From Owenia fusiformis (Eukaryota; Annelida; Polychaeta; Sabellida; Oweniidae): 64,000 nt of DNA. Made by a program: the position numbers and the translations under genes. Below the pieces are notes generated by a model that ran no database searches, was not told where the DNA came from, and was given only the letters and a program-made list of their open reading frames with translations. Shown here piece by piece: positions 10,001 to 53,500 of this stretch (position 1 is its first letter; each line of letters begins with the position of its first letter). The stretch is taken from assembly GCA_903813345.2 (NCBI GenBank), contig CAIIXF020000007.1:28073564-28137563 (forward strand), written 5' to 3'.

Positions 10001-13000
10001 GGAAAAGCTATTAGACTCTGGAGCAAGAGGGTCTAAAGACATTTGACTCTGGAGATTCTCCGAACTCTAAAAGCCAAGTGAGAACCCTGGGTTACTTATT
10101 TGGGGCTAGTTGGATGGATAAAATATACATTAACAATAGCTTCCTAGCCTCAAAACAATTTACAAAATTTGATTTCTCATATTTTAAAGTATTAATGCGT
10201 TCTCCCCCAGGATTTTTCTCAAATGGTTATAAAACACACATTTTCGCATTTCTGACCAAAATTGGTAAAAATGCCTTTCTTCACAATTTTTTCATTGCCA
10301 AGTTGTTGCAATTGATTTCTAGGTTAACACAAACCTCTTTTCAAAACTTCAAGAATGAATGCCATCCTCGGATCACAGGGCTTCAAAATCCAGAATACTT
10401 CTTTCCTTTTCCACCCTGCTATAAGCAGTTGGAATTTCCCCGATTAAGAACTCACAATTTGTTCGTTGTCACAACACTACGACAGCAATCATGTATACGT
10501 TATCGGTGCATAATTAGATTACATGACTCAGTTTAATCGGGCGCTTCCAAATTGGTTATAGCAGGGGGAAGAAGCAGGTACGGATTCTGGACACCTGATT
10601 ACTAGGAGGATGGTGGAATCCCCACGCACCATATGCTTTCATGTTTGGGCAAGCATTAATGTAAATATTTTGAATACAAGGGAAAACTTGCTTCCTGATA
10701 TTATTTAGACCTTTACATCGAAAAAGGGATTTTTTCATACTAGTGCATTATGAATTATTTAACCTTGGTATTGGATTTTTATTTTAACATGCAAATATTT
10801 TTTATGAAAAAACTGTTGTGTAATTCAATTATTTTGTAAATTGTAAATTCAGCTACAGTATTTTCATTTGATACCAAGGACCTGGATTGCATGCTTTGAA
10901 ATAATTTTATTTCTGTTCATGCTTTGTACAGCAATTGCAGTAATTGGAAAATGATGTGAGAACTTACCCAATGATAGTGTAATCATTTTCTTAAGAGCTC
11001 ATACTCGAATTATTGAACATTGTACATGTTGGAAAACATTCACTTTTGTATTTTCTGTTTTATGTCAAAATGTGATAATGGGCACTACAAACAAGAAATA
11101 CAAAAGGAAATATTTGTAGGTCGATCAGAATTGTGCAATTTTGAATTCTTGATCCTTAATGCAAACATGTTGAATGTTCATTCTCGAGTGATCTTGAGCT
11201 AAGTTGCTTACACGAGGGTGTTGAAGCCTTGGCGATAACTATGAGGTGTTCAATCTACATTTTCTCATCAATTAGCATTCTGGTCTTTCAGACACTCTCT
11301 CAAATACAAAGCATCTCGTGAAAGAATAGGAACTGTATATGTACTGTAAATACCACAATGATTAAATAGGCAAAAAGTTTTTAATTCAGCAATCCTAAAT
11401 ACTTGCACCTTGTTATAAACTTAGAATACTTGGAGCGCACTATACTCCAAATTATTTTTTTTTTTCACCTTTCGAACCACATCATGTTTCATAGTTTTTT
11501 CATAAACAAGGATTGAGCAATGGCCAGCTCTGATTGGTTCATTGTGTTCAGAAGTTCATTTGTAGAGTATTTTGGCAGAGTGAGTTACTCTTGTAAAGGG
11601 TTAAATCTAAACAGTCTTGTTAAATCTTAGGGTCTCTTCAGAGTGAGTTACTCTTGTAGAGGGTTAAATCTAATCAGTCTTGTTAAATCTTAGGGTCTCT
11701 TGAGAGTGAGTTACTCTTGTAAAGGGTTAAATCTAAACAGTCTTGTGTTAAATCTTAGGGTCTCTTGAGAGTGAGTTACTCTTGTAGAGGGTTAAATCTA
11801 AACAGTCTTGTTAAATCTTAGGGTCTCTTGAGAGTGAGTTACTCTTGTAGAGGGTTAAATCTAAACAGTCTTGTTAAATCTTAGGGTCTCTTGAGAGTGA
11901 GTTACTCTTGTAGAGGGTTAAATCTAAACAGTCTTGTTAAATCTTAGGGTCTCTTGACCTTTGACCTTTTTGACAATTATTGGTATTTTATTTTTTGGAA
12001 CCAGGTGCCATTTAAGTTTAAATAAATTATTTGATATTCCATATGGGACATATTAGACGTGATAAGGAACAAGTTGCCCTCATAAGTTTCGTTGTGCATT
12101 CTTTGAATATATATGTGGTTCTATGAAATACAAAGATATTTGATATTTTATGAAATTCATATTTTGAATAGTATACGATCTTTATCAATTTCAAAACACT
12201 ACTGAATCATTGCACTCTCAGATAGTAATTTACATTGAGTTAAATCATGGAACACAGCCATGTAACATTTGTATCCTTTGTAAAACAGTACAGCAGTTTT
12301 TCTCATCTTCAAAAGTGTTATCTATGTACTGTAGTTGTAATTATTACTAGGCTCTGTGTCCCAGGGGTCCATTTATGAACTATCATAACTTACGTAATCC
12401 TCGCAAGCGATTGTTCTTCATAAAATAGGCTCTGGTTTTCTTGGAATCGTAAACTAGAAACATACCAAAAACGAATCCCAAGGTAATTATATCACATACA
12501 GACAGGTGAATTGTTTGTGTGTTTGCACCCCCCCCCCCCACTACTATATCTTGACTTGTGGTTTCATTTTGCTTCTCTCAGAAATTGAGATATCTGAACA
12601 TACCAGAATTATTATTTCATGTAATGGATCTGTTTGTTTATATGCTACTTTCATTCCAAGTTGACTTAGTCAGTATCTATCTCCTCGCCCAACATTACCC
12701 GCTCAGAACTCTTGTATTTTGTCTGCATTTTATTGTTGTGTTATGCCTGGGTCACATTTGCTCCAATTCATCGGCGACATCCAGCCGATAGAGTATTCTG
12801 TTTACAATTGTATTTAGTTTTGAACAGAATACTCAATGAATCGGAGCAAATGTGACCAAGGCATTAAGCAGATTTTATAACATATCTGTCTGTTATGGAT
12901 ATATACATATTTACATGTACCTTTTCTTATAGTTTGATCAGCTATTTCCAAGGGGGTTCACTTTTAAAAATTCCAAGGGGTTCAGATTTGACAACTTGGG

Positions 13001-16000
13001 TCCAAAACCACTTGAAAAGTGCTCAGAATACTGCATGATTTTGAAGAATTTTGGGCCAATAGACCCCCCCCTGAACCCCTCTCCCTTGGCTATTAGCATG
13101 TCCATCTACACTGTACAATCCTAATTGATACCCTCTGACACTCAGTGTAATACTGTAATACAATTTCATGATATATTTCATGTCGTTTGCTGAATATACT
13201 GACTGTAAGCATTTCAAAATAATTGATTAGCGTCATGATTAAATCATGCAATCTCATGACGGCTTAATGGAGACACCAGAGGGGGGCTGTCATTACAAAT
13301 AAGTCCAACTAGAAATACATGCAATAAGTGACCATGTTTTATCGCCACTAGAAGTGGTGGCATATTGTTTTATTCTCCAACTTTTTGTGTACAGTGGTTG
13401 GTGTTTGGCGGTGGGTATCTGTAACAAATGGGAGGTGGTGATATTTTGCATGTTAATGCCTTGTTGTCAAATGATATGAGATGCCTTCAAAATATATGAA
13501 AGCTATATAAGAATTAGAAATGGGAACTTCAAATAGACCATAGTTAGAATAATTTTATGTCAGCACTAAGAAGTGAAGCTACCATATCACAACCACAAGT
13601 GATGATATATCGTTATGGTTTTCAATGGTTTTTGATGTCGGCGGTTGGTGTTCGTTGTCAGTAACAAATAGTAGGTGGTGATATTTTGCATGTTAATGCC
13701 TTGTTTACCAGTTTTCTAAACTAAACAATTGGTATTGATGGTCAGTATCTGTAACATGTAGTTACAGTTTTGTTACCATTGGCAATAGCTTATCAGGTAG
13801 AACAATTTTGTCATGTTTAGTTGCCTAGCTGAACTAGTACATGATTTCAGGTTATATACAAGCTAGCCTATCATGATAACCCATGGCACCATTTCTTCTC
13901 AGCCTTGTTTTCGTGAAACAGAAAGATTTGATTGAATACAGAATGAAGCTGGTCTAGCTCATTAAAAATGTCCAAGATAAAACCATAATTAGCTTCATCG
14001 TTTTGTTATCCTAGTTGGCAGACCTCTGCACCTTGTATGCCATAGTGGCCATATATCATACACCCAGGCATCCCTAATTAGTCAGAAACGGCCTAATTGC
14101 CAACAAGATTAATGCAGTTGTATCAATTACTAGTGTACTCCTAAACCTATTCAACACTCACCTTTACTTGGTTGTTCCTAACTCAAGTACATTTAATGAG
14201 GGGGAGGTAAAATAACACATAGTTTTGTTTTAGAAAATGTGGGCCTTTTTAACAAAATTTATTTGGAAAAACTGGGCCTTTCTTTTGCCTATTTTGGGGT
14301 AAGGGCAGGGCTCGGCCCCAGTCTTCCATTATCATATGGACTACAGTAAGGGGCTTAATTATATAACTGATATGTTTAGTAATTTACTTGACTTATTATT
14401 TTCATTTAGGGATGAGTGAAGGGCTCACTTTCATTAAGCTCTAATCAATCTTTGAATTACCTTCACATTCACAAATGAACATTAATGTTTCATCCATAAT
14501 ATGGGATGAGGGTTTATTTCTAAAACCGACTTTCCTGGAAAGATACTGAAAATCCATTATCAATGACGAACATGATCGATGATGTCATATTTAGACAACT
14601 TAAACTGAGGGAACAAGAACTTTTTTGTGATAATCCTAAATATTTCAAGCTTGATGTTTTCTTATAGATGAAAAAAACAATTATGTTTATACTTATTATT
14701 ACCCCCTTGGCGGGCCTGTTCTTGGGGTAATAGTACTAGAATTGAAGGTGTTTATTTTACTATATTGACCTGAGTAATATGTGACGTCATAGTGGCGGGC
14801 CAATAATGATATTTCAGCCCAGCAATGTTTCCCGGGAAATGAGATATCGTTCAGTGCGTATAATTTCGCTTAAGTGGTCAGTCAGTTTTACCATTTCAGC
14901 TTGGTAATAAATGGTGGTAATAATAAGTAAAAGTGAAATATTGCCCTTTGAAATGACGTTATTGTACTATTATTCTATGAGGCACCATCCTTGTTAAATT
15001 ACATCTTTTGTATAAAGCGTTGTTTTTATTTAATGAACTACAGTGTATAGTGAAAAATCCAAAGTATAATGCCATAGAGATGCATTATAGTTAATGAAAT
15101 CAAAGAATGAAATCCTGTGCCAAGGGCTTATATTAACAATTTGATAAAAATGGTAACCATATTGATGATGTTATTTTTCAGAAAAGAAGCGTTTGAATGA
15201 TTACATATCCCATTTTGAGGGATTAACATATAGTACCAATGATCTCCACCGTGACCACCAGAGGGCTCGGCGCTCAACCACAGAACCTCATCTTCATCTT
15301 AAATTCAAATCACACGGCAGGTGAGTCAGCAACCTTTTCAATAATTTGATTTATCCACACTCTTTGAATTCGAGATAATTCTTTGATCAAATCAAATAAA
15401 AAAAGCCCATTCAAACTGTAAATGTAGTCATAGAAATGTATGTTCACAAGTAACTGTCATTTCAAAGTCTCGTGAAAGGCCATGACAACCTCTTGGGTTG
15501 ATGAAAAACTTATCCGTATCAAATCTATGTACAGGGTGACCGGAAAAAAAGGAGACCATTGAAGTAATCAATTTCTCCTAAACTAGACAAGTGCCATCAA
15601 TGAAATTTTGCATACACTGGAACAGTTATATGGAAATTTGTTACTGAATGTTTCAATACAAGCATTCAACTGGTTCAGGAGCTATGATCATTTACATAAC
15701 ATGCTCCAAATAGGCACAATTGAGACCAACGCAGAGTTGGATTCATATGGCAAACTACCCTTACATGTTCCGCCCTCTATGGCATTATTATGGCATTTCA
15801 TATAGCAGTGATTGCCTTCTTTAGGTCAACAATAGTCTGAGGATTGTTTTGGTATAGATTGTCTTTCAAATATCCATACAAAAAGAAATCAGCAGGATTC
15901 AAGTCTAGGCTGTAATGGCAATGAAGGGTTATCTGACATGTGGTTCATCATCCTGTTGCCAAAGTGCTGATTTACCCAATCTTAAGAGTCACTTTAGGTA

Positions 16001-19000: not shown

Positions 19001-22000
19001 AGAATAATGCACAGTAGAGTTGATTAGCCTAGATAATAAGTATTTCTTCTTTTGCCCAGTTTATATGGGGAAGTGCAAATTCTGAGCCCCATACCCCAAT
19101 GTCTGCCACTGGTATTTAAGTATATATCTTTTGTTTCATACATCAGTTTGCATCAAGGGGTAGAGTGAGAATTTTATTTTATGGGGTATGTATATTATTA
19201 AATGTAGAATGTAGAAAGTCATTAATATACTTCTACCTTTGGTATTCAGGTATTCAGATTTAATATCTATTACTGCTGTTGCTAGGAAGAGGCTGATGAA
19301 GCAGTGAACTCTTCACTTTTATGGATACCTAGCTAATAGATAGATATATATTCAAAATATTTCATTTCTTGAGACACTCACAATGCTCATTCACCTCAAT
19401 TTGTTATAAAGTTACATAACGGCTCAGTTTTGTTTATGTACAAGGTGTTAATTTTGTTTATAAATCTAGTGATTCACAGTTTCTGGTATATGCAATAGTA
19501 GAGGAAATTATCAGTAACGGGAGAATTACATTGGATACTAGATACATTCAGGACCTCCCTTGCATAGATTGTATTTGTACAGAAATAGGTTGTACAGCCA
19601 AATAAATCACCTCTGCATGATCAATTGAATCAGTTGACTCTGATTTATTTCTTCACCAAAAATAGTTTTATATATTCATTCTAATTTGATCCTTAAAAAG
19701 AATTCTTGACAATTTGCACAATTTACTGGCATGGCGGCAGTTATAGGGTTCTTCTTGAGATATTTATGTATGAATTCTGCCACATTGTTCCGCTTTTATG
19801 TTTATTTTATCAATTTTAATGTTTCAGGAATTTTAACCTGCGTTTGAGGAAAGATACTACTACATTTAGCAAAGGCTTCAAGTTGGAAAACTCAGATGGG
19901 ACATTAGACGATTATGACACCTCCCATATATACGAGGGTGAACTTTGGGGTAAGTTTTGATAGAATATATATATATAGTTTCATTATTATTTAACGTAGC
20001 AAATTTAAAACTGCTCTATTCTCTTACCTGGAACAGTTTTAGCCATGGCTCCAAGTGGAGCATTCAAATGGGACATTAGACGATTATGACACCTCACATA
20101 TATACGAGGGTGAACTTTGGGGTAAGTTTTGATAGAATATGTATATAGTCTCATTATTATTTAACGTAGCAAATTCAAAACTGCTCTATTCTCTTACCTG
20201 GAACAGTTTTAGCCATGGCTCCAAGCGGAGCATTCAAATGGGACATTAGAGGATTATGACACATCCCATATATACGAGGGTGAACTTTGGGGTAAGTTTT
20301 GATAGACTATGTATATAGTCTCATTATTATTTAACGTAGCAAATTCAAAACTGCTCTATTCTCTTACCTGGAACTGTTTTAGCCATGGCTCCAAGTGGAG
20401 CATTCAAATGGGACATTAGACGATTATGACACCTCACATATGAGGGCGAACTTTGGGGTAAGTTGATTGAATACGCATTTTCAGTAAAACCTGTGTTCAG
20501 TAAACACCTATGGAGAGTAAGTGAGTCAGGGTAAGTTGATAAAATGTGATACCAGAGTAAACTTTTGAGTTCAGTTGATATGATATGATACTTCATGCAT
20601 GGACCAAGGTGAACTTTTGGATGATGCTGAAGATATTGACACTTCATATCTAAGGTGAACATTGTGGTAAGTTGATAGAATATGCAAATAATATTTTCAT
20701 CCTGAGCGCAGAGCTAAGCTAAAATTAAGTAAGTAAGATGGAGCTCTCTTAAAAGGAGCTAAGTCAAACGAATGTTAGAGAAATGGAACAGTTTTTTATT
20801 TGTAGGAATTTGTACTTTACTCTGTATATTGGAGAATATAATTTTCGACTATTGATCATTAAGAATACTTTGCCAATGTTCAAAACATGGTTGCCAAACT
20901 TGACAGGCTGCTGGCAATCTGACTATTGTGTTAATAGCACCAAGATTTTAAATACGCTCTATTGCTTTTTGTTAAAAGTGATTATCATTTCAATCAGGTA
21001 ACTGAGTTTTAAACCCTGGCTAGCCTTACCAAATGGTAGTTATTGTTAGTAGCCTCTGAGCTTCATAGTACTTCATATGTACATTTATTCATCCTTTAAC
21101 TCACCTCTATAAAATGCTGTCACTGTCTATGAGAGTTGTCCAAAAGTCAATAAAATTTACAATATATGATCATTGGAGATCTTTTGATTATTCTATTAAG
21201 TTTCCTTACGGTTAGCAATATTATGTTCATGTAAGATGAATATAATCATGTCAGTGAGTTTGAATATGGTGGGGCAGATTTTTATCATGTCATTATAGAT
21301 TGAAGTAGAAAATTGAATATATGAAATAATTTATCCACAAACACCATTTCATGTAATTCGATAACTAGATTAATACTTTTAATATTTGACTTATAATTCT
21401 AGGTGAGACAAACACCAAGGTTCATGGTTCCATAATCAATGGTGTCTTCCAAGGCTGGATCAAGACTCCCAGAGAGAAGTTCTATGTTGAATCAGCCAGA
21501 CGTTTCTATGACGATCCACAAGAATTCCACTCGGTCATCTATGCAGATAGCGATGTTGATCCTGATCCTTACAGGTTTGTGAATTTTGAAATATTTAAAA
21601 TAAATCTCCATTTGGTCATTTTTTCAATTCACCAAGAAGATGTGCATGGCGTATTGTTATCGTTATATTGTCACCTGTCACAAATTGTTACCATTTTGTT
21701 ATGTCGCCTACTGCTATGTTTACTACAGAGAGGAGATGTCACCTACTGCTATGTTTAGTATTGCTATGGAGATTTTATACAGGAGTTATGAAAATGTGTC
21801 TTGAAGTAGTGTTCACTAAATACAGGTGTTAACTAGAGAGAGGTGTTCACTAAGACAGGTTTTACTGTACTATCTAAAATACGTACTGAAATCACAAATG
21901 CCTTGAAATTTGCAGACACAAGAGATCTGCAGAGACAGGGACATGTGGCAATGATTATGTGCGAGACTGGATGGCAGATGTACAAAATTCTGCAACAGGC

Positions 22001-25000: not shown

Positions 25001-28000
25001 ATTTGAATATTCATTCCAATGCTGTGTGTTTTCATCATTAACCTCTTGACTACCCAGAGTAACGAGATAATCCATCACTAAATTTTTCACTAGAATTGCT
25101 CTTATTTGAACAATTTTCATCCAATTTAGACAAAAATATTTTTAAAATGTGTAGAAATGATCTCTGCCGTCTAATTTTAATAAAATGAGTATCACCTGTT
25201 GTATATGTAATAAATGTAGTAAATGTCTAAAGCTGGCAAAAATGAAAAATTTTCTTGTTTCAACCAATTTTAGAGCATGGGATTCAAGGGGTTAATAACT
25301 ATGAGAGATTCGTCTTGATTGAGTCTTGTTTCAAACTGAAATTATTGTAGAAAGAGGAATCAGCAACTGAGAAATCAATTAGCTGTGGAATACAACAATA
25401 TTTAGTTCACTACAAATTTTTGTATAGAAATGCCTGAAATATTTTCAAGTATCAAGTTTTTATGTCACCACCAGAAGTGGTGACATAAGTTATGGTCTCC
25501 AACTTTTTTGTGGATGGTGTTCGGTGATTGGTGTTTGGCATTTGACATTTGGTGGTTGGTGTTCAGTGTCTGTAATTAATGGCAGGTGGTGACATTTTGC
25601 ATGTTAATTCCTTGTCTCATTTTGTGGTTGGATAATTAGTGTCATGTGATATCATTTTTACCAGTCCTGTAACATGGAAAAATCATCCTTTAGTAATTTC
25701 ATGTGTTTTGATACCTGACATTAATGTTACAATGAGGAAAAAATTAATCATGTAGTGTGTGTTTGGGGTATTAATTTTCTTTGGATTGCAGAAAAAGATA
25801 GAAATGGACAAATTCAAGGTAAAAGGGATGGTTTCAAGCTAGAATGAAACCAATAATGTAGTCTAGATAGTTCATAGTTACAAACTCTTACTATTTGAGA
25901 ATTTCAATACCATTGAAGCCATATTGATCACATCTTTTATATTGCAGGCCTGCAGGGTCATTGTTTTTAAATTCCCCATTCAATTGTCCTATACAATATT
26001 CCTTTAATTGGATGAAAATGATCAACTTCAAAAGTCCCAGAAAGATTCAAAAGTAAAACAAGTCAAGTGGTACACCTCTATGAGTGCATCACTCTACAAT
26101 TCTGTCCCATGCGTGCAGTCTAGTTTTAAACTACCCTCTGCTTAGTGTAGAGTATATTACAGTTTAGCTGTTGCCTGTGACAGTCAAGGTTATAAATCAC
26201 TTCAAATCTACCGCTCTGCCTTTTCTCAACCAATCAGTGAACTGGAAGGAACACATGATAATGTGAGAGGAAATGACTATGTATGGAAAGTCATCCGCAT
26301 TTCGACGACAAACTCTGATTGGCTCAGTTCAGTTCAGAGATTTATTGTAAACTGAAAGAGTGAAGACGAAGCTCACGTTTAAGAAGCAAACTTGAGCAAA
26401 TGCACAAAGGGTACAGTACTCTCACTGATTTACTTGATTTAACTGGAAATCACCCCAAGTAGAACACCAAGGGTGTTCTGCTTAACAGGCTTTATTGTAC
26501 ATTATGTTTTGTCAAACAACATGGCTTGAATAGTTCTAGTAGGGTTTGGTTAAAAACATAACTTTCTGTTTATTAGCCAGCTATAGTGGTTCAAACAAAG
26601 GAGGTAGGTCAAGACCAAGAGATGTAGGGTATTGTCAAATTGAGGCATTCTTGTTGTACTGTATTTGCTAGTTAAACTCATTGAATGAGGTTGCCTGTTG
26701 AGGTTTGTGATTCATTGTACTATCATTGGCTCACATGGTGGAATTGCCCACTCATTCATCTCTCCATGAATAGTTTTCTCAAAGAGCCTTCCATTTAAAC
26801 TTATGCTCATATCACTTACTTGTAATGTCCATTATTGGTCCCAGCTCCTCCTATTTTTGCCTTATCAAAATCACCATGTGAGTCTACCAAATAGTACTGT
26901 TTCATTATAATAAGTTTTGAAGTATAAGCATGGTTAGAATAATGGAGATTTATTTATTGTTCTAAGTTCGTTTTAGTTTTAAGATGAATGAACCATTTGT
27001 CTTTTCAACACTGAAAGACTGCTAAATTATTTACCTTTCTGACATCACATTATAGGTTTTTATCAGATGTACTGAGCTTTTCTCGTCATTGTGAAATATA
27101 GTTGCCACAAATTGTTTGAAATCTTAGCTTTTCCTTTCATTGTGCAATATTGCCACCACAAATTATTTTATATCTGAGCTTTTCTTGTCATTCTGAAATA
27201 TAGCCACCACAAGTTATTTTAAATCTGAGCTTTTTTGTCATTGTGAAAAATAGCCACCACAAATTATTTTCAACCTGAGCTTCTTGTCATTCTGAAATGT
27301 AGACACAACATTGTCATTGTGCAATACGTACACCACAAATTGTGAAATATAGTCACCACAAATTATTTTAAATCTTAGCTTTTCATGTCATTGTTCAAGA
27401 TATCCACCACAAATTGTGAAATATAATCACCACAAATAATTTTAAATCTTAGCTTGTCATGTTGTTGTGAAATATAGCCACCACAAATTATTTTATATCT
27501 GAGCTTTTCTTGTCATTGTGAAATATAGTCACCACAAATAATTTTAAATCTGAGCTTTTCTTGTCATTGTAAAATATAGTCACCACACAAGTTATTAAAT
27601 ATAGCCACCACAAATAATTTTAAACCTGAAATCTGAGCTTTTCTTAGCATTATGATGAAGTCAACACATAAGGTTTTAATTACTATAATATTTTCCTGTT
27701 AATTGACTCTATCTTGTCATTGTGACCAAGTCACCACATATTATCATTTTATTTTATGTGACCGTTCCTCGTCATTGTGATCAAGTCCCTGTATATTATT
27801 TTACTTTAGCTTTTTGTGTTATTGTGAAAGGATGCCACATATTGTCTTAAATATGAGATTTCCGTTTTTTGTCATCATGGATAAAGGCACTGCTTATACG
27901 TTTAAACGTTTTTTTTTCTTTGAGATTAAGTCACCACATGATTTTAAATCTTAGTTGTTCTTGTCGTTGTGATAAAACATCATATATTATAACTGAGATT

Positions 28001-31000
28001 TTTTATGTCACCTCAAATTAGTTCTTGGGGCCAATTTTCATGACTATCTCTAACAAATGTACACATCCATTATTTATGCTTGTGGTGACATTTTGTCACG
28101 TTATTGCGATACATATACAGTATAGTCACCACATATAATTTGGTATAGATCAGAACTGTGTATGTATTTGCTTTTACTACCTTAGATTCTTGTATGTACA
28201 CTTCTTTTAGGAATGCAAATATTTGTGAAATTCACATTAAACATTACAATCTTCGCGCTTCTTTAACTCCCTGGCTTTTGCAAAATGGACTAACTGTATG
28301 CTTTCTGATAAGAGTTGCAGAATGTTGCAACGGTGCAAGATATAAATGGCTTAATAACATTAAATATCTCATACTCATATGTTTGCTTCATTAACTATGA
28401 TGCTTTTATAAAATGATTCTGGTTGATAAATGATAAATTTGCAGGAAATTACCGCCTCAACAAAAGCTTTGAATATTTGACTGCATGTTTTATACAGTTA
28501 GAAAAGGGGCCTGGCCTAGTTTAGTTGGTGTAACTAACTTTATAAAAATTATTGATGTCATTGTGTTTACTTCAGAGATTATCAAATTATTTTCTGATTT
28601 GTCATGACATATCTAATCTTTGATTCTGAAATCAAGAAATAATATTTAAAGCATGCATACTGCCGCATATGAAATGATTATCAAATAAAAGGAATGATTT
28701 GGTTTTAAGTTTGATTCCCGTGCTTTTATCACCCAAGCTTTGCATATATGTTTAAATAAAACATAACGTTGCTTTATGTTTGTTTGTGTTTTTGTCAAGA
28801 TCTGTTTTGAACATGCGAATGATTTTGACACATGTGTCTAAACATAGAATGTTAAATACACGGGGAGGGAGGGGGTTAGGGTTACGGGGGTTCACTTCTC
28901 ATATCTAGTGACACCTTCTCTCTCTCCCCCCATTTAGGAATTGAACTGGAGAACTTTAGTATGTCTTAATATTTTTAGGTGCTCGTGGAGGTGTTTGTGA
29001 AAAATATGCTGAGTACAGAGAAACTGGAGGCATTAAAATTTGGAAGTCTCTCAACACAGGCATTGTTACAATCATCAATTACGGAAGGAGGGTCCCTCTT
29101 AAAGTGTCAACACTCACCTTTGCTCATGAAGTTGGACACAACTTTGGATCTCCAGTAAGAAGTGGTATTCTCTTTAAAATTAGGCCATATTTTGAGTGTA
29201 ATTATGCATAGAATGGAGTTTATTCTTTCACAGAAACTTTTTATTATTCAGTGTATTATGTGCCTATATTTCAGCATCATATCAGTACATCATGTCTGTC
29301 TCTATATTTCAGCATTGCTTTGGCTCAGCCTGTACACCCTATACCAGCAGTCAGAACCAAGCTGGCAGCTATATCATGTCTGTCTCTATATTTCAATATG
29401 GGTCAGCCTGTACACCCTATACCAGCAGTCAGAACCAGGCTGGCAACTATATCATGTTTGTCTCTATATTTCAGCATGACTCTGGGTCAGCCTGTATACC
29501 CTATACCAGCAGTCAGAACCAGGCTGGCAGCTATATCATGTTTGCCTCTATATTTCAGCATGACTCTGGGTCAGCCTGTACACCCTATACCAGCAGTCAG
29601 AACCAGGCTGGCAACTGCATTATGTTTGTCTCTATATTTCAGCATGACTCTGGGTCAGCCTGTACACCCTATACCAGCAGTCAGAACCAGGCTGGCAACT
29701 ACATCATGTTTGTCTCTATATTTCTGCATGACTCTGGGTCAGCCTGTACAGCCTATAGCAGCAGTCAGAACCAGGCTGGCAGCTATATCATGTTTGTCTC
29801 TATATTTCAGCATGACTCTGGGTCAGCCTGTACACCCTATACCAGCAGTCAGAACCAAGCTGGCAGCTATATCATGTTTGCCTCTATATTTCAGCATGAC
29901 TCTGGGTCAGCCTGTACACCCTATACCAGCAGTCAGAACCAAGCTGACAGCTATATCATGTTTGCCTCTATATTTCAGCATGACTCTGGGTCAGCCTGTA
30001 CACCCTATACCAGCAGTCAGAACCAGGCTGGCAACTATATCATGTTTGTCTCTATATTTCAATATGGGTCAGCCTGTACACCCTATACCAGCAGTCAGAA
30101 CCAGGCTGGCAACTATATCATGTTTGTCTCTATATTTCTGCATGACTCTGGGTCAGCCTGTACACCCCCAGTAGTCAGAACCAGGCTGGCAGCTATATCA
30201 TGTCTGTCTCTATATTTCAATATGGGTCAGCCTGTACACCCTATACCAGCTGTCAGAACCAGGCTGGCAACTATATCATGTTTGTCTCTATATTTCAATA
30301 TGGGTCAGCCTGTACACCCTATACCAGCAGTCAGAACCAGGCTGGCAACTATATCATGTTTGTCTCTATATTTCTGCATGACTCTGGGTCAGCCTGTACA
30401 CCCCCAGTAGTCAGAACCAGGCTGGCAGCTATATAATGTTTGTCTCTATATTTCAGCATGACTCTGGGTCAGCCTGTACACCCTATACCAGCAGTCAGAA
30501 CCAAGTTGGCAACTACATTATGTTTGCCTCAGCCACTTCGGGAGACAGAGTGAACAACAACCAGTTCTCAGCATGTAGCAAGGACAACATCACTTCTGTA
30601 TTAGAAGCAGTATTTACAGGAAAAAGCTCGAAAATTAACTGTTTTGAAGGTTCGTTCCTCATAATAATTTTCACATTGAAGTTCCTTAAAATCATTTTTG
30701 CATTTTTCTCAAAATTTAAAATGAAGCATGCTGCTCAATGTTATTTAATCCGAGAGAGGGAATAAAGAATTAATTCCAAGGGACAATGTGATATTGTTCA
30801 CATTAGGTGTCCTTTTGATATTTTCTTACTTCATGTGGCATTAGTTGACCATTGACCAATAAGAAAAGAGCATTTTAGGGTTATGTATTTCCTGTTGTAG
30901 AATCACAAGCAGCCTTCTGTGGCAACTATATTGTTGAAGATGGAGAACAATGTGATTGTGGCTATGCCCAAGACTGTGAAGATAAATGTTGCATTGGGCG

Positions 31001-34000
31001 CGGCACTGATGGCTCCGGCTGCACACGCAAACCTAATGTAGTTTGCAGGTAAGAACTGATTAAATAAGTGTCTGTGGAACATTTTCATTGACCGGTTTTT
31101 ATGTCACCAACAGAAATGGTGACATTGTTATGGTCTCAAACTTTTTTTGTGTACGGTGTTCGGTGGTTGACTTCCAGCATACAACAATCAGCATCTGTAA
31201 CAAATGACAGGTGGTGAAATTCTGCATGTTAATTCCTTGTTCAAAATTGAAAGAAATCCTAAAATATTCAAAATGTAAAGATTAATGTTTCATTAAGGAC
31301 ACAATTATATACTTGCTATTTTCATTTTTTTTATTGTCACCATTAGAAGTGGTGACATATTGTTATAGTCTCCAACCTTTCTTGTGGATGGTGTTCGGCA
31401 ATTGGGGTCAGTAACAAATGGTGACTGTAACAATTGTCATGTAGTGATATTTGGCTTATTAAAGCCTTGTTTATCTATTTGGTTTTGATATAATTTAGTA
31501 TGTTTATGTAACATTGCCTGAGGTATCTTACAACATTTAAGAAAGAGGGAGCAGGGGGATGTTGTAGTAGATAGGCAAGCAGCTATAACGATTTGGCATT
31601 ATTCAGTTCTTGTGTTTCAGTCCATCTGAGGGCCCATGCTGCAATACAGACTGTGAATATAAAGAAGCATCCACCGATTCTGTCTGCAAATCTTCATCTG
31701 ACTGTGCGCAGGAGGCAAAGTGCGAATATCCTTTAGTGCTTTAGATAAACAAACATTTTCAGTGGAGTAAAATGTTCCATGGGGAGCATTGATTAACGTG
31801 GTGACATTAAGCAAAAAAAAAATATCTTCATTGAAGCAAGCTAGACTGTCCATGAGCTTTGTTACCTTGATAAAATCATGTATGTTTTAATCTATTTCTG
31901 GTTGATGCTATTGTTAAAATGACATAGAGTTTAAATTGTTAAGAGCAATCTTTTTAAAAGCATCCTATGGCTCTCTTAGAATCCTAATATCATTTTCTGA
32001 AAAACAGAATTGTCATGTTGTATTCGAGCAAATGTAGAAATTATTGATACAGAAATGTCCATATTTATAAAAATTGAAAAAGTGGAGCCTATTTTTCTAT
32101 TCTTTGCCAGATAACACTAAATATCAACCGATTATCCTCAAATGATGTCAGGATTGTTTAAGTTGATAATTAGGAAGACACAGAATAATTGTAAAGTTGT
32201 GAATCTTAGCTCACGCTCATCTTGAGTCTTTGTTACCCCTTTAAGAACAGACAGATTTTATATTATTATTGATTACTTGTGACATTGTTCCTTGACCTTT
32301 GTACTGGTCAGCAGGCCGCATGTCCGACCCCAGCTCCCAGGGCTAACTTGACATCGTGTAACAAAAATTCACAGGTTTGCGTCATGGGGGTAAGTACGTT
32401 GTAATTATATACCTTATGAAAAATCTACAGCTTTCTTAAATTATGTAACATTATGGTCTTATGATATTGGACCATTTTATAGTAAACAGTTGAGCTGGAG
32501 ACCCACCTGTGCCGAGAGCTTTTGAAATATTCAATGAACTATAAATCCATCACTTCCAAGAAGTTTTTTTAATAAACTAATATTACTAATGATATTATTC
32601 AAAAATAGTAAAAACTTTCATCTTTTTAATATGATTTTTTCCATTCCAGTAAAAAATTTCCCTGTAGAAATATAATTTACCTGATTTTTAAGTTTATCGC
32701 ATGTACCTTTAATTTATATGTACAGTCTAAGGCAGATATCACAATATTTGTTAACAAGATTCTTTTATTCTATATCATTGGCCTTATACCATGCATTCTT
32801 ATTCAGTCTGTAGCACAGCTCCAGGAAATAGCTCAAATCAAAGCAATGCTCTAATTTAATTGATACATGGGGAATCTGGGAAAAATATTTTCTTGGGATT
32901 TGTGCAGGACTGTACTTACATGTGATTCAATTATATTCAGTTGTACAACTATAAGCTATTTCATCTTGCTCAGGAATGTAAAGGCTCAATATGTGATAAA
33001 ATTGGATGGGAACTATGTTATCTTACCAGCCAAGATATCGATGAGACCCTGTCAACAAGTGAAAGGACTCAGCAACTTTGCTATGTTTCTTGCAAAAATC
33101 CAGGTGTGTATCCGGGAGGTATCTACGCACACACGTACATGGATGTTGTATTATGTTAAAGCATGTTTTAGTTGTAGTTGATTAGGTGATTGGCTGCAGT
33201 TAGGTTCTATTGGTTAACTCTTTCCTGAGTCCGCCATTGAGTATACAGTCAAACCTGTCTAAGTGGAACACCTTTGGTACTTCTAAAATGTGTTCCACCT
33301 TGAGACTCTGAAAAGTGTTCCACTGACAGAGGTGTTCCACTGCTAGAGGTCCAAAATCCGAACACCTCCCAATTTGAATACTTTTTCTCAGTCAAAAATT
33401 CTGTTATTTCCATTAGAATCACATATGTTAAAAAAACTTGATATGTGAACACCTGCTTATCCAAACACTTTTTTGCTGGTCCCAGAGGCGTTCATATTAG
33501 ACAGGTTTAACTGTACTCTCAAAATAATGCTGATCAAAGAGTCACATGATTAGATTCAGTAAAATGGCAAAGACTGCAGAGTTAAAGTTTTCGATGAAAC
33601 AGTGGCAAGTTAGTATAAAAACTGATTATTTTAATTTCAACAATCATACTTTTCATTTTCTAAAATGAATTTTTGTTTGTATTACTATTGGAGTATGTGT
33701 ATTTTTGAATCCAAATTTTTATTTTGCCACTGGTTCATTCTTAATGCTTCAGAAGATCAGATCAAGAAGTTCTTGAACTTAATGACTTGTTCTTTGTAAT
33801 TCTAACATGTTCAATTGCACATTAAAATTTACTAAAGCAATCATTCGGTAATTTATTGTTTATATTTATATTACAGTTCAAGCATGTTTCTCGCATTTTA
33901 GTTATAGTTAGTTAGTGCATATCCTCAAGAACATGAAAAATTATTGCAGAGGCTGTTTGTTATTTTTGAGGCTGTGTGTTAGACTGTACCGTAATCCAGC

Positions 34001-37000
34001 ACGGAAATAATTTGCTTTTTTCAACAGATGTCATAAAAGTTATAATAATTATGCGTTTCTTTTGAACATTTGAAACATCACGTATGCAGTTATGCAACTC
34101 ATCATAAGGAGTTACTTGAACTTCACAAGTAAGCCGTAATATGAAAGACTTCTTGGAAAATTAAAATTGAAAAATTGGAAAACTAAGATTTGATTTCAGT
34201 TATGACATCTGTGTATCTTTATGTAGACTCTATTGCATGTTATATGTTTTTTATTTATTTATATTCTGGTACCAGTGTTCTCCCCAGGATTTTATTTCAA
34301 GCGCTTTAATGCTGGGGAGACCACCGGGTATTATATATGGCTATTGTGTAAATAACCTGTGGCCATGCTTCTACTCTTAATACCAAAGAAATATGTTTTA
34401 AAAGCACACAATTCATTTTCTCAGTTTTAATTAAGATTTAACTCTTGCCAAAATTTTGCAATAAGGAGCTCACCTTCCCCATAACAAAAAACAAGGGACA
34501 TTTTAGGCCTTGTTTTAGTTGAAATATGGCTATAGGCTAAGTATCTCCAATAGTACAATAAAATCAAATGTTGTTATGAAAATCTTTGTTAATGGCAGTC
34601 TATTGCAGAACCCCTAAAAATGACTCGGTCACCATTGTCCGATTAATCTACAATGAATAATTAAATCGGGTGCCTGCTATAGACTGGTGTTATACACTCA
34701 ATAATAGCATGCCATGTCAGTAGAAATGCAACTTCAGATTATAAGTGATGAGATGTTATGAACAGAATATAAAAATCATATGTTTGTAATCTGAGTTTGT
34801 GTTAGAATCTCGGGCTTAATTTATTAATTTAGGTGTAGTGGTTAAGAACATTTAATGCCCTTACAGAAAGCGTAACAATTATGGTATAATTAAAAAAAAT
34901 CATTCCTTTTTTAATCACATTAACAATACAGCAACAAGTGGATATGATCCTTTGCTATGACAGCACAGTTGAAACAATCTTGTTCATTTTCGTTTAAATA
35001 TTTTTGTGACTATGGTTTTACGCTATCTGTAAGGGTATTCACTAACCAAGGCACGATATAGCTGGCTAGGTACTAGGTAGGCTGTAATCTGAAGATAGAC
35101 AAGGTGAAACTAAGCTGAGATCTAACTTGGGTTTGGGGTAAATGTTGCTTTTCTAACGGGGTAGACTTGCACACGTGTTTTCTAGGAGTGCACTGGGTCT
35201 ATGTGTGATAGGATAAACTGGGAGCAATGTTTCACTAAAGCTCAAGATGCAGATGCCTTAGGCACCTTATCAACAACACAAAAGTATTCGTTTCTATGCA
35301 ACGTTGCATGTAAAGATCCAAGCGCAGGTTGGTGGTTGATAACAATACGTGAACAACATAGATTAGTATTTAATAGATCTAAGCTTACGTTTTGTAACAT
35401 AAAGTGCTTATGTAATTTTCTGCATGTTTTTCTGAACAGTAGATGTGCTAATTATATTTAATATTTGAATGTTATTGGGCTCTGTGAAATATCAGTTTTT
35501 AGCTCACATGGTGAGCTTTTGCAATCACTCACTTGTCCGTCTGTCTGTCCGTCCTTGCATCCGCCCGTCAACAATAGTGGCATGTTTTAAAACCTCTGTC
35601 GATAGGATTCCCGTTTTTCTTCAACATCAATACAGAAAACTCCCATATGACTCCTCGCCTATTTTCAAGATGGCCACCATTTTTGTCTCGTGAAATTCAC
35701 TTTTGACCCATTCCCTAGCTTTACAAATAATGTCAGGTGTCCTGCATTGATAAAATCCATGTCAATGTGAAGAGTAGTTGTATGAAATAATTTTGTTACA
35801 AAATATCGTCAAAAAATTATATCAGTTTTTTTTATTCTCAGCCATTTTAGTTAACATTGATTTGTCCATCTGTCTTGTGAAATCCTCTTTTGGACCATTT
35901 GACTTAAAGCCTCTGTCGATAGGATTCCAGTTATAAGTTATTTTTGTTCAACATCAATACAAAAAACTCCCCTATGACTCCGTTCAAAAGCTTGCCTATT
36001 TTTAAAATGGTCGCCATTTTGTTTCGCGAAATTCACTTTTGGCCCATTTCCTAGCTTTACAAATAATTTCAGGTGTCCTGCATTGTAAAAAGCCATGTCT
36101 TTGTAAAGAGTAGTTGTATGAAATAATTTTGTTACAAAAACTTTTTATTTGTTGTCATTTTAGCCATCATTCTCTTTTGAGCAACACCATGTGAGCCCAG
36201 TACCCACTGTACTATTTTTATTTCTTTTCCTGCACAACAAAATACAAATTCTATTAAGTGTAATTCCTGATAAATATTGAGTATTATGTAAAAAATGATG
36301 AACAAAAAACATGATTTGTTTCAATTTATGTACATCATATAGATGTACATCCACTAACTATTGCCCATAGAGCATGGGTTCTCAACTTCTCAAGGTCTCT
36401 CAAAACAAATTCAAATACTCGGTTGAATTTGTATGCATAGTTTAAAGTACGTTTATGCTCCATTTTTATAACAAATCTCTACTTTTCAAATACTCAATTG
36501 AATTTATATGCATAGTTTAAAGTACAAATGTTTTATAACAAACCTCTACTTTTTAGGTAACAGCTCGAAGTGTGTGAGTACAAGTGAGTTCAATAAGGCG
36601 GAACTTGACAAGGCTGAGAACAAACCATTGAGAGATTTACTCTCAGAATTGGATAAACCATCAGGCATCATGATGCCACCAGGTAAATATACCCCCTTGA
36701 CTTACATGTACCACTCACACTGACACACTGTTTATTTAATGAAGTAAAGCGTGCACTGGGATTTGCTTGTTTCATTGAGGTATTTTCAATTTCACTGATG
36801 TATTTTCACTTTCACAGAGGTATTTTCAATTTCACTGAGGTCTTTTCAACTCACTGAGGTATTTTCAGTTCACTTGGGTATTTTCAATTCACTGAGGTAA
36901 TTTCAATTTCACTGAGGTATTTTTCAATTTCACTGATGTAATTTCAAATTCATTGAGGTAATTTCAATTTCACAGATGTAATTTCAATTTCACTGAGGTA

Positions 37001-40000
37001 ATATCAATTTTGATGAGGTAATTTCAATTTCACTGAGATATTTTCAATTTGGAATTTTTGTGAACTTTCATAATATATGTAATATGTTAGGATGCAAGAA
37101 TTGAAGATTGTGCTTAATTTTAATTATTTCTTATTTTCCAGGTGCTGCATGCGATAACTTCATAGGCTATTGTGATGTGTTCAGTAAATGCCGAGGGGTA
37201 GATGCTGAGGGCCCCTTAGCAAGACTTAAAAACTTACTCTTCAATCCAGAGACATTCCAGACAATAAAAGACTGGATAATAGTAAGTTTGGTGAACACTT
37301 CATTCAAACTTTTCAATAAATAATTAACCTTCGAGGCAGTCATATGGTTGTCATTCTGAGAGAGGGTCTGCCATTTTCATTCCAAAAGGAATGCAATTTT
37401 GTTGAAAATACTTTCATAAATTACGAGTGCTAAAACTAAATCTTTCACTTGGTTGTGGTTTTTCATTGAAATATTTATGTTTAACTCAGGTAACACAAAT
37501 ACTAACATTTGAGTTGAAATTCCGACATGTGCTTTCACGATGATCATTATTATTTGCAGACAAATTGGTGGGCTGTCCTGTTGATGGCCGTTGGGCTCGT
37601 AGTATTCATGGGCCTATTTATAAAAGTATGCTCCGTTCATACACCAAGCAGTAATCCAAAGAAAAAGAAACACAGGAAAATTAGCCTTAAACCTAACCCT
37701 AGACACAGGGTAAGTGATTAACAGATGCGTCACTTTTCATGACGATTATGTGTTACAATTGCATGAATTAATACTTGTATTAATAGTATTCACCAGTAGT
37801 ATCTAAAAGATAATCACACTTGCTATGCTATAGTCTTCATATGGTGGGGTCCAATATTATGTGGACTTATGTATGCAACAGTATTAAGCACATGGCACAC
37901 ATATGGGAATAAATCCCTCAGGGACTTCCAATGTTATGCATGGGTGTAGCTAGCTATCCCTCAGGCAGGTGAGACAGTTATTTTAGAGAAAGAACCTGTT
38001 GATCTATGTCCCTTAGAAGTATGATATTCTCTTTGGTAGAACTTTTGCCTCACCTATTTCTAATTGCCCCACTTTTCCACTCAATTTGCCTCACATTTTT
38101 ATTCAAATTGCCTCACCTATTTTTTGGATTCTAGCTATGTCCTTGGTATTGGTAATTGGTAATTGGTATGTTTAGTTTGCTGTTCTTCTATCATAGTGCC
38201 AGAATAGATTAGATGTACAAACATTATTAACAAACATTTCTTTTCATTTAACCACACTAAAGGGAGATTGTCAAAATATTAATGTAAATGATTGTCAAAA
38301 ACATAATTTATCGCTTTTTGGGAATAGTAAAAAAGGCATCTTTATTAGTTTTTCTCATGCCTCTGTTTGCATACCGTGTGACAGCTCCAGAATTATGGGT
38401 AATGCTGGCTAGCCATTGGTAGCTCAAGAATTATGGGTAGTGCTGGCTAGCCATGGGCAGCTCAAGAATTATGGGTAGTGCTGGCTAGCCATGGGCAGCT
38501 CAAGAATTATGGGTAGTGCTGGCTAGCCATGGGCAGCTCAAGAATGATGGGAAATGCTGGCTAGCCATGGGCAGCTCAAGAATTATGGGTAGTGCTGGCT
38601 AGCCACGGGCAGCTCAAGAATGATGGGAAATGCTGGCTAGCCATGGGCAGCTCAAGAATTATGGGAAATGCTGTCTAGCCATGGAGCAGCTCAAGAATTA
38701 TGGGGAATGTTGGCTATTTTGGTCTTGAATTGTGAAATTGATTATTTTGGGACTTGTTTCTTTCTCACACACATTTTAAATGCCTGTAGCAACATTGTCA
38801 CTTTAACCTGCATGACACATAGGATATTGATATTGTTGTAGGATACATCAATGTAAAGATGGTATGTAAATCATGTCAAACTTGCACAAATGTCTGTCTT
38901 TTTGCCTGTAGGCTTAATAGGTATATTCTCAGAGCATGCTTATACCGAACAATAGATATGTGGCACCAATGATTCACCAATTTAATGTGATTGTAAAGAA
39001 TCTAACAACTTAGAAGGATGAAAGATGATAATTCTCCATGTAATAATTTTTCCGATTAATTCCAATCACTCCCTATCATTGGTATAATATCAGATTCTAC
39101 TGTCTTCAAATATGGTTGATTGATGATGTAATCCCGAACTCCCGTGCAGTGATAATATCACTGCGGCGGGCAGGTATCTCACCGTAAGCATGGTAACTTC
39201 ATGATAAACAACTGACGTGATTGGTTCTAGTCCCATGCTCAGGTCGCGTGATTGTAAAATTTAGACAATTTCATTGGTTGAATTGCGCGTATTAACTAAT
39301 AAACAACACGTGCGGTAAACTATTATCAACAAAACTTTTACTCAGAATTCCTTCCGCGGTGATTTCTTCTCATATTTCAATGATTTTGAAATATTTTGAC
39401 AAAATAATGATTGGTGAACATAAAAGAACATATATTTTATAAGTTGTATGAAAATCAAGTACATCTGTGACAAAAAGGGGGACTATCTTCCCCAAATTTT
39501 GGGGATTCCATAATCTGCCCGCCGCAGTGTCTATACCGAGACACTGCATTGGAGTTCGATGTAATCCATGTATTAAAACTAATTAAATGTGATGAAAATA
39601 TAAATGGATATTATCCTACACGAGGTTCAGGATATTGGGATTATCTGAGTCCAATATAATATATCTGCCCGAGGGCCATAGGTCCAAAGGGTAGATATAT
39701 TATATTGGACAAGGGATAATTCCAATTTCCTGAACGACTATAGACTACTCACATCTGTGTACTAGTACTTTCCCCTCAATTCTACATGTACTGGTATATA
39801 TATATATAGGATTATTTACAATTATAAACTATATGTACTTCTCCCTGTGTGTCTGTTTTCCCATACCAAATCCAAATCTTTTTCAAACTGCTAGGATAAG
39901 TCAGACATGCTGTATCAAACTTGGGGAAGGGGTTTGTCATGATAAGGTACAAGTCCCCAAACAAGGTTACCACTCCCAAAACGTAATATATAAGAATTGT

Positions 40001-45000: not shown

Positions 45001-45981
45001 AGCATAGCCAGGCATGAAGTAGGTGAGGCAAGCATGAAGTAGGTGAGGCAAATATGAGGCAGGTGAAGCAAATATGAGGCAGGTGAAGCAAATATGAGGC
45101 ACTGAGGCAAACATGAGGCACTGAGGCAAACATGAGGCACTGAGGCAAACATGATGCACTTAGGCAAACATGAGGCACTGAGGCAAACATGAGGCACTGA
45201 GGCAAACATGAGACACTGAGGCACTTAGGCAAACATGAGGCAAACATGAGGCACTGAGGCAAACATGAGGCACTGAGGCAAACATGAGACACTGAGGCAA
45301 ACATGAGGCACTGAGGCAAACATGAGGCACTGAGGCAAAAATGAGGCACTGAGGCAAACATGAGGCACTGAGGCTAACATGAGGCACTGAGGCAAACATG
45401 AGGCACTGAGGCAAACATGATGCACTTAGGCAAACATGAGGCACTGAGGCAAACATGAGGCACTGAGGCAAACATGAGACACTGAGGCAAACATGAGGCA
45501 CTTAGGCAAACATGAGGCAAACATGAGGCACTGAGGCAAACATGAGGCACTGAGGCAAACATGAGGCACTGAGGCAAACATGAGACACTGAGGCAAACAT
45601 GAGGCACTGAGGCAAACATGAGGCACTGAGGCAAAAATGAGGCACTGAGGCAAACATGAGGCACTGAGGCTAACATGAGGCACTGAGGCAAACATGAGGC
45701 ACTGAGGCAACTGCCTCACCAATATTGTACAGAAATATAAACATTCATTCCAATGTTATTTCAAATAAACAGAAAATTAAGTCCAATTTGGTTTTTTATC
45801 CTATTTTAGTTCAAATTGGCCTCACCAATTTGCTAAGTTTGCCTCACCAATTCGCTAAGTTTGCCTCACCAATTCGCTAAGTTTACCTCACCAATTTGCT
45901 AAGTTTGCCTCACCAATTCGCTAAGTTTGCCTCACCAATTCGCTAAGTTTGCCTCTCAAATTTTCAGTCCTGGCTATGCCT
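45001..45981 (+). repeat. 18-bp minisatellite plus 22-bp repeat within inverted ends
   Basis: About 35-40 units of CATGAGGCACTGAGGCAAA type between 45021 and 45716, with block-wise duplication. Then about six units of GCCTCACCAATTCGCTAAGT type (45828-45960). The whole is bounded by the inverted pair AGCATAGCCAGGC (45001) and CCTGGCTATGCCT (45969). The long open frames on the minus strand here are only the minisatellite read through. Confidence 0.9.
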
Positions 45982-50519: not shown

Positions 50520-53500
50520 CTGCAAGATGTAACAGTAATCAGCTATTGCAGTTTTATAACAAGGCATAAACAGGCAAAATTTCACTACCTGCCATTTGTT
50601 ACAGATGCCGAACAGCAACAACTGTCCATGTTTGAGACTACCCTTGCGGTGGTGACATAAAAGTAAAATTCAGGTGATTAAGAACTCATATGTGTGTATG
50701 TACTGAAATCTTGGTATCTTTCAGAATCTGAAAAACGTAGACTCTGATCTTACCTTAGCTGATGTAATAATCTGGTTGGCAGCTTTATTGGAGAGATTCT
50801 CAATATTCTTCACAAGTGTTTCAGTTTCAGCATTAGCCACCAGGGCCAGTGTTTTGAATCCGGCATTGAACAGCTGCCTAGCCCTTCCCTATAATTCAAC
50901 CACACATTTATTATTCAATATAGGAGAGATTTTCTATGTTCTAAACGAGTGTTTCTGTTTCTGAATTAGCCACCAGGGCCAGTGTTTTGAATCCAGCATT
51001 GAACAGCTGCCTAGCCCTTCCCTATAATTCAACCACACATTTATGATTCAATATATGAGATTCTCAATATTCTTCACAAGTGTTTCAGTTTCTGAATTAG
51101 CCACCAGGGCCAGTGTTTTGAATCCGGCATTGAACAGCTGCCTAGCCCTTCCCTATAATTCAACCACACATTTATGATTCAATATATGAGATTCTCAATA
51201 TTCTTCACAAGTGTTTCAGTTTCTGAATTAGCCACCAGGGCCAGTGTTTTGAATCCAGCATTGAACAGCTGCCTAGCCCTTCCCTATAATTCAACCACAC
51301 ATTTATGATTCAATATATGAGATTCTCAATATTCTTCACAAGTGTTTCAGTTTCTGAATTAGCCACCAGGGCCAGTGTTTTGAATCCAGCATTGAACAGC
51401 TGCCTAGCCCTTCCCTATAATTCAACCACACATTTATGATTCAATATATGAGATTCTCAATATTCTTCACAAGTGTTTCAGTTTCTGAATTAGCCACCAG
51501 GGCCAGTGTTTTGAATCCAGCATTGAACAGCTGCCTAGCCCTTCCCTATAATTCAACCACACATTTATGATTCAATATATGAGATTCTCAATATTCTTCA
51601 CAAGTGTTTCAGTTTCTGAATTAGCCACCAGGGCCAGTGTTTTGAATCCAGCATTGAACAGCTGCCTAACCCTTCCCTATAATTCAACCACACATTTATG
51701 ATTCAATATATGAGATTCTCAATATTCTTCACACGTGTTTCTGTTTCTGAATTAGCCACCAGGGCCAGTGTTTTGAATACAGCATTAAACAGCTGCCTAG
51801 CCCTTAGTAATCCAAAATTTACCGCTTGAGGTTCAAATTTAGATTATATTTGATGGCTTCTATTTTTGCAGAAATAATTGTTCTGAGCCATATTTATATA
51901 ACATATTAAACAATACTAGGTAAGAATATGTGTGCAGTATTAATATTATGTATGATAATATTCATGTTTATCCTTTTTGTGGAAAATTTTCCAAAGACTT
52001 TCCATTGCCTTAGATACATGGAACAACACATCAGCCCTACAGCATAAATAATGCAAACTGCTTACATTTATTTTATTGTTTACCTGTTTAACTCCTGGAA
52101 TCTCCATGAGAGGAATCAGCTCCATGGTAACACAGTATGACAACTTCCTCACAAAAGTCTCAAGGAGTTCTTGATATGCCCAGAATTCTTCCAATTCCTA
52201 AAAATATAATTCCAGAATAAACTCTGAGTGGTGGGCTAAGACAGTAGCACCTATTGAGATAACATGTATGTTTAAACTTCTGATCTCAAATTAAAACAAG
52301 GGATTAACATGGAAAATGTCACCACCTGGCATTTTTTACAGATGCTGAATGCTGAAATCTGAACACCAACCACTGACAGCCCAAACATGGTGATATAAAA
52401 ATATTTTTACAATAACATCTATTCTTCCTTAAGTCAAAAAATATATATTTGTAAAACACATAAACTCTTGTTCAAATTCAAAAAATCAAATGATATGGCA
52501 ATTTAAAGGATAAGTCAGAGAATGAATCTAGATATCAACTTCGGAAATATTGAATATTGAAAAATTGTAATGTCTGAAAAACCAACTCAATCACACGTAT
52601 TATTAAACCTTGATATCCCATCCTTCTTCTGAGAGTCAAAAAATCCTATTTGTATCACGATTGATGAAGAATGTTGGCATCAAAGTTGCATATCAGTTCA
52701 TAATTATACATTATTTACTGTATATACTCCAACAATATATGAATGGGATTCGTTCAATCGTATTTGATTAATTCAGCAAAATGTATGGCACCTGGACAGA
52801 CCTGGTGATACATTTTGTTGATATAATAAAGTATATTCTTATAATAGCAGTATTACCTCACAGAAGTGAAAGACACATGATGCAAATGATACAGCTCCAT
52901 TAAGAATGTTCTGTATCAAACCCCTGTCTAGTTTAAACTTCAGGGAGACTTCCCACATTGTTTTCTCCTTCCAGAGATCATAGAGCACCAATGTTAAAAA
53001 GAACCTCCTCATAGGGAGCTCATTTACTTCTTGCTGGAATAAAAATGAAAACAATATATACATGGTATCATTGAGTGTTTAAGAACAGGCAGCTTATCAA
53101 GTACTTATTGTAATAATACATTGGATACAACATAATGGGGATGAAGAGGACCCGAAATTCTGAAAATAAATACATGTCCTAAACTCAAAATTATTAACTA
53201 TACTGTATATGTTGCAGAATTTCCTCGCCAAATATTCGTTCAAAATCATGCAGTTTTTCACCATTCTGAACACTTTTCAAGTTGTTAAATGTGAATTTTT
53301 GGGAAAAGTGAACCATCTTGGCAAAAGCTGGCTAAGTGGCACTGCCAATGTTGTATATAATAAACTGTTCAATGGTTGTATCAGTGTCCTCACTACTCCT
53401 TCCAACCGACTGACAATCATGACTCAAACCAATTTGTCTTCAAAGAATCTACCAATGGCTATTTTTGAGATGAATCAACTGATATCATCATTGGGGATTC

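Follow-up and report, generated by a model that had tools for sequence, protein, structure and literature searches.

A minisatellite of near-identical splice acceptors at an exon edge of ADAM10 in Owenia fusiformis

We analyzed a 64-kb stretch of Owenia fusiformis DNA (hereafter the window; G+C = 34.9%), which contains an ADAM10 ortholog on its forward strand and, as a neighbour on the minus strand, a helicase gene of the POLQ/HELQ/Hel308 kind, which we take to be HELQ. Two joined exons of the former (28979-29154 and 30457-30649) matched PDB ADAM10 chains with an E-value of 5e-36, compared with 7e-19 at best for ADAM17 chains with the same query, and the gene gave Pfam matches to Reprolysin models, Disintegrin and ADAM10_Cys-rich, in agreement with the identity proposed in a first-pass annotation of this DNA. 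From position 19828 on, 17 ADAM10 exons were mapped, including two alternative versions of one exon. With either version, the resulting 16 exons form a single open frame from the exon at 19828 to a stop at 43504, and we therefore do not regard the mapped part of the gene as a pseudogene. A further upstream exon was placed at 15182-15319; the number 10 that the first-pass annotation gave to the exon studied here fits if one more exon lies upstream of that position.

Two other parts of the gene deserve mention. The cysteine-rich exon exists in two diverged versions (32974-33103 and 35186-35327), each 1 mod 3 long, of which either alone keeps the frame open while both together break it; judged by frame, they would form a mutually exclusive exon pair. 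The ADAM10 region with either version matches PDB ADAM10 chains, and a literature search on ADAM10 with mutually exclusive exons returned no title on ADAM10's own exons. In addition, the intron at 31726-32304, between the exons 31621-31725 and 32305-32389, starts with ATATCCTTT, contains TTCCTTGAC near its end and ends in AC, and by consensus we take it to be a U12-type AT-AC intron.

The region around exon 10 is composed of the following features, all on the forward strand (a slash marks the exon-intron boundary):

28979-29154, +: ADAM10 exon 9, with donor CCA/gtaagaag
29155-30456, +: ADAM10 intron 9, 1302 nt
29241-29274, +: degraded 5' array boundary, with ttattattcag (AG ending at 29251), a possible remnant ATTATG-TGCC and the first tatatttcag acceptor (AG ending at 29274)
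29275-29312, +: unit 1, internally deleted, 38 bp
29313-30456, +: units 2-15, of 84, 80 or 78 bp each, directly preceded by the decoy AG ending at 29312
30167-30168, +: first 4-base deletion, in unit 12
about 30403/30404, +: the same 4-base change in unit 15, with a premature stop (30408-30410) next to it
30457-30649, +: functional ADAM10 exon 10, 193 nt, consisting of unit 16 and the remainder of the exon, with the weak donor AAG/gttcgt

Most of intron 9, which would measure only ~97-120 nt without the array (29155 to 29251 or 29274), is occupied by a minisatellite that Tandem Repeats Finder (TRF) reports at 29289-30530 with a period of 84, 15.2 copies, 91% matches and a score of 1980. Its 84-bp unit comprises the last 12 nt of intron 9 and the first 72 nt of exon 10, so that each unit reads ATCATGTTTGTCTCTATATTTCAG followed by the first exon codons, CATGACTCTGGG..., which bears out the earlier description of the unit as the exon's 5' edge plus its acceptor. 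Going by its motifs, the copied edge carries the third zinc-binding histidine, as that description also held, and the Met-turn. A 35-base stretch of the unit had no exact match in viral_contigs, and Rfam gave no match at gathering score.

Between 29265 and 30456 we counted 16 instances of the core TATATTTC with AG, TG or AA directly after it. Fifteen of these copies precede the functional acceptor, eight with AG (ending at 29274 in a truncated copy, and at 29312, 29474, 29558, 29642, 29810, 29894 and 29978), three with TG and four with AA. Fourteen upstream copies had been counted previously, which is right from 29312 to 30376; the truncated AG copy ending at 29274 brings the total to 15. Within that interval a copy-by-copy listing confirmed the even split of seven copies with AG and seven without. 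The AG was lost as CTG at 29726, 30140 and 30376, and as CAA at 29396, 30062, 30220 and 30298. These two classes had been recognized correctly, but the CAA form, then described as a 6-base deletion, appears by eye to be a replacement of 9 bases by 3 (net -6). At the 5' boundary, the possible unit remnant is weak, since its score was reached by 84 of 5000 shuffles against the functional unit and by 745 of 5000 against the consensus.

A pairwise comparison of the units shows that units 3, 11 and 14 are identical and that units 12 and 15 differ at two positions; units 14-15 are thus a second occurrence of the block formed by units 11-12. Judging from this matrix, one block duplication is visible in the array, as the first-pass annotation had proposed from the recurrence of the CAA/CTG pair at 30063/30141 in 30299/30377. 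Among the 84-bp units, the one that diverges most is unit 2 at the 5' edge (6-10 differences from the others, compared with 1-7 among units 4-10). The functional unit 16, at the 3' edge, shows 4-9 differences from units 4-10 and lies no further out than unit 7. An escape of edge units from homogenization would fit unit 2 and is not borne out by this matrix for the functional unit.

A tandem unit spanning an exon-intron boundary is also found in two other arrays of the window, with unit lengths of 170 bp and 131 bp:

19828-19949, +: ADAM10 prodomain exon, source of the donor-side array
19865-20464, +: donor-side array, 170 bp x 3.5 (TRF), in which the 3' edge and donor of the prodomain exon are copied three more times downstream
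50793-51805, -: acceptor-side array of the HELQ-like gene, 131 bp x 7.7 (TRF)

In the donor-side array, the exon ends lie at 19949 (functional), 20121, 20291 and 20457; only the first leaves the frame open, and three cassette readings also run into stops. The HELQ-like array has six AG-intact decoys, with exon starts at 51676, 51545, 51414, 51283, 51152 and 51021, and its functional exon, which is followed by one more coding exon, starts at 50888. Between -15 and +6 none of the six complete decoys differs from the functional site, and each meets a stop inside the first unit. In each of the three arrays the copies lead away from the exon, and only the exon-proximal site, among those modelled, preserves the frame. 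The working site also gives the shortest exon in each case: 193 nt vs 671-1375 nt for ADAM10 exon 10, 135 vs 268-923 nt for the HELQ-like exon and 122 vs 294-630 nt for the prodomain exon. The exon-10 array, earlier presented as a single oddity, is thus real, but it has two companions in the same window and belongs to a kind that already has a name, mirage.

An assembly artefact might be considered as the source of such a structure, and one amphioxus mirage was indeed said to be aberrantly assembled in the draft genome (PMC3087553). Here, however, the units carry private differences and come in several lengths, unlike a stuttered assembly, and the two other arrays repeat the same design with different units, so we regard an artefact as very improbable.

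We next consider the reading frame. When exon 9 was joined in silico to each of the eight upstream AG copies, every model ran into a premature stop, at 30172-30174 for the first AG copy and at 30408-30410 for the other seven; joining exon 9 to the further AG ending at 29251 gave a stop at 29477-29479. Among the acceptors modelled, only the one ending at 30456 keeps the frame and reads through exon 11, and the earlier claim that full-length protein comes only from the last acceptor holds to that extent. It is the two 4-base deletions that end the array frame, as had been noted, although after the first of them the HDSGS register shifts with no stop until 30408-30410. The stops of the eight decoy copies lie 239 or 475 nt before the exon-10 donor. 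Premature stops far upstream of a junction generally lead to mRNA decay, and with stops at least 239 nt before the exon-10 donor, decay of decoy mRNAs would therefore be expected.

Most AG units start at the histidine codon of HDSG, and a decoy-spliced product would therefore keep the zinc-binding motif for a while. Could the array then code for a longer ADAM10 isoform in which a 28-residue unit recurs? In favour of this, 84 bp make 28 codons, no stop interrupts the frame between a point ahead of the first full unit and 30407, and splicing to the AG units from 29475 onward would place HDSG after exon 9. Against it, the frame is broken by the two deletions in this haplotype, and every modelled upstream AG acceptor ends in a stop. 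Synonymous changes are not in excess either: the upstream units show 12 nonsynonymous and 6 synonymous changes at an expected synonymous share of 0.26 (P = 0.32 for an excess), in a test of low power given the few changes, which weighted transitions fourfold and excluded gaps, the functional unit and the columns of the CAA replacement. By this low-power test, the upstream units appear to carry no sign of coding constraint, and we consider a coding role of the array extremely improbable.

Splice-site strength was estimated with a matrix built from 21 further acceptors in the two genes of the window, a small set used without cross-validation. It assigned 8.6 to the functional acceptor and 9.0, 9.0, 9.0, 8.6, 8.6, 8.6, 7.5 and 5.6 to the decoys. 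Six of the eight AG decoys thus score no lower than the functional site, while among the other AG sites (93 examined) the best were 29251 at 3.9 and a site at 0.3. When the 45 nt preceding the functional acceptor are compared with the same stretch of the decoy ending at 29810, a single base differs, at 30435 (A; C in the decoy). This base lies in the likely branch point, which reads ATAATG at the functional acceptor, ATCATG in six of the eight decoys and ATTATG in two. The same position distinguishes functional ATAAT from decoy ATCAT in both acceptor arrays, apart from the two ADAM10 decoys with ATTAT: in the HELQ-like gene the functional site has AATAAT and all six decoys AATCAT, with identical sequence nearer the exon and more differences further upstream. 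The C/A difference at 30435 may represent a possible branch-point upgrade, and we treat it as a weak lead. The first-pass annotation had called the acceptors equivalent. This is not fully so, since the functional acceptor has a different base at the likely branch point and gives a much shorter exon.

On the donor side, exon 10 scores 3.6, compared with a minimum of 5.7 among 20 other donors. The best donor-like site of the units, CAT/gtttgt, occurs in seven of them, 19 nt before the next acceptor, and at 4.6 ranks above the exon-10 donor and below the 20 true donors. Micro-exons or whole-exon copies made through these weak unit donors are possible on these scores, since exon 10's own donor scores only 3.6. 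The five acceptor copies nearest exon 10 (30062-30376) all lack AG, which has a probability of 0.010 if losses are independent. Selection rather than drift could have produced this run; the units there are, by their sequences, block duplicates. The proposal that AG loss near the exon is a need is weakened by the block duplication and by the HELQ-like array, in which all six complete decoys retain AG.

Splice sites multiplied in a working gene have reportedly been described before. A minisatellite in an interferon-induced gene, which we take to be 6-16/IFI6, is said to bring multiple splice donors into the transcript and is cited as interfering with splicing, in work attributed to Turri et al. 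1995; it resembles the present case in the multiplied splice site and differs in that donors are affected there and acceptors here. A potato study is said to have found intron gain by tandem duplication. The closest known counterparts come from amphioxus, where globin and Adh3 genes carry tandem repeats across exon-intron boundaries; these were named mirages (PMC3087553), and TnC and PGBD5 were added to them (PMC3902484). According to the first of these reports, AG/GT is kept in many, not all, mirage units, the repeats show length instability, and RT-PCR suggests that regular splicing is undisturbed, with cryptic use thought possible (PMC3087553). As in Adh3, BflGb6, BflGb9, TnC and PGBD5, the repeats described here are minisatellite-like and sit at acceptor or donor edges (PMC3087553, PMC3902484); AG is kept in 8 of 15 upstream copies here and AG/GT in many units there, where the host gene is reported as expressed. 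Unlike the amphioxus cases as reported, the ADAM10 array has ~15 copies (3 and 6 in two BflGb6 haplotypes), and three arrays lie within 64 kb and two genes, known here from the genomic sequence of a single haplotype. In human segmental duplications, variable internal tandem repeats at exon-intron boundaries are reported to alter splicing (PMC2812944). These are likewise minisatellites at such boundaries; they differ from the present arrays, as far as that report describes them, in their units of 30 bp on average, in belonging to recent primate paralogs and in the alternative transcripts and new introns reported for them. Because mirages are already known from amphioxus, the ADAM10 array is a striking further example of them and not a new kind.

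Taking together the architecture, the frame consequences, the near-equal acceptor scores and the two sister arrays, all of which are observed directly, we consider it very likely that the array is a mirage-type minisatellite without coding constraint, whose last copy is the working site and whose decoys would mostly be skipped through exon definition. The published mirages, which share this architecture and are reported to splice normally (PMC3087553, PMC3902484), favour this reading over the truncated products that the first-pass annotation allowed for. The array would have originated in a tandem duplication with one breakpoint 12 nt into intron 9 and the other 72 nt into exon 10, followed by amplification, presumably by unequal exchange or slippage, to ~15 copies that stretch from the exon into the intron. 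The last copy, joined to the remaining exon, would serve as the working splice site and leave the upstream copies as intronic decoys. If the acceptor is paired with the donor across the exon, the site giving the shortest exon would be taken, perhaps assisted by a better branch point. Cross-exon pairing would be a single rule that keeps both genes working. The scores are not ideal for exon definition, as the exon-10 donor is weak (3.6) and seven donor-like sites in the units reach 4.6. The human boundary repeats (PMC2812944) and the interferon-induced minisatellite, reported to change or interfere with splicing, also weigh against the favoured reading. Decoys might be used at some rate, and occasional use would produce premature-stop mRNAs destined for degradation.

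A different weight could be given to that decay. The row of decoys might act as a regulator: some transcripts would use upstream acceptors and be removed by nonsense-mediated decay, with the level of ADAM10 output set by copy number or AG content; eight AG decoys, six of them scoring like the real site and all leading to a stop far upstream of the next junction, would suit such a role. However, the units show no sign of constraint, an array of similar kind is found in the helicase gene, which is unrelated to ADAM10, and amphioxus mirages are reported without disturbed splicing (PMC3087553, PMC3902484), which makes regulation decidedly unlikely. We also consider it unlikely that the single branch-point base at 30435 (ATCAT to ATAAT), with exon length, picks the working site among nine near-identical acceptors. 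On that unlikely reading, since the same C-to-A difference sets apart the working acceptor of the helicase array, mirages might stay harmless because their branch points diverge, and alleles with different copy numbers might adjust the output of ADAM10 by way of decoy use and mRNA decay.

The locus offers a clean, ready-made test of how, in a conserved gene, the spliceosome settles on one of many nearly identical acceptors, and the donor-side and acceptor-side sister arrays within these 64 kb provide internal replicates. Minisatellites that bear splice sites can evidently grow inside conserved genes without disrupting their frames, a point relevant to how introns grow and are gained.

Finally, we examined whether exon edges attract arrays, an idea that we dropped because whole-array and direct tests show no enrichment. 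Random placement of single seed units gave P = 0.005 for three of six arrays at exon edges, and random placement of whole arrays gave P = 0.22, for six arrays chosen after the fact (period at least 30, at least 3 copies) and with rough edges for the exon at 15182-15319. Copies spanning an edge within 3 kb were found at 3 of 50 exon edges vs 152 of 1000 random positions across the whole window, arrays included, and hence are not enriched at edges; for the HELQ-like exon near 63538 these edge tests used a 5' edge placed by eye, and they left out the helicase exon at 63992-63873. The window holds further minisatellites at 11577-11957 (63 bp), 27072-27624 (51 bp), 36770-37050 (20 bp), 38382-38716 (38 bp) and 45024-45962 (19/22 bp), none of which overlaps a mapped exon. 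Two-copy 173-bp repeats at 58403-58753, 59756-60087 and 62962-63297 look alike by eye, one of them in opposite orientation, and are perhaps one dispersed element.
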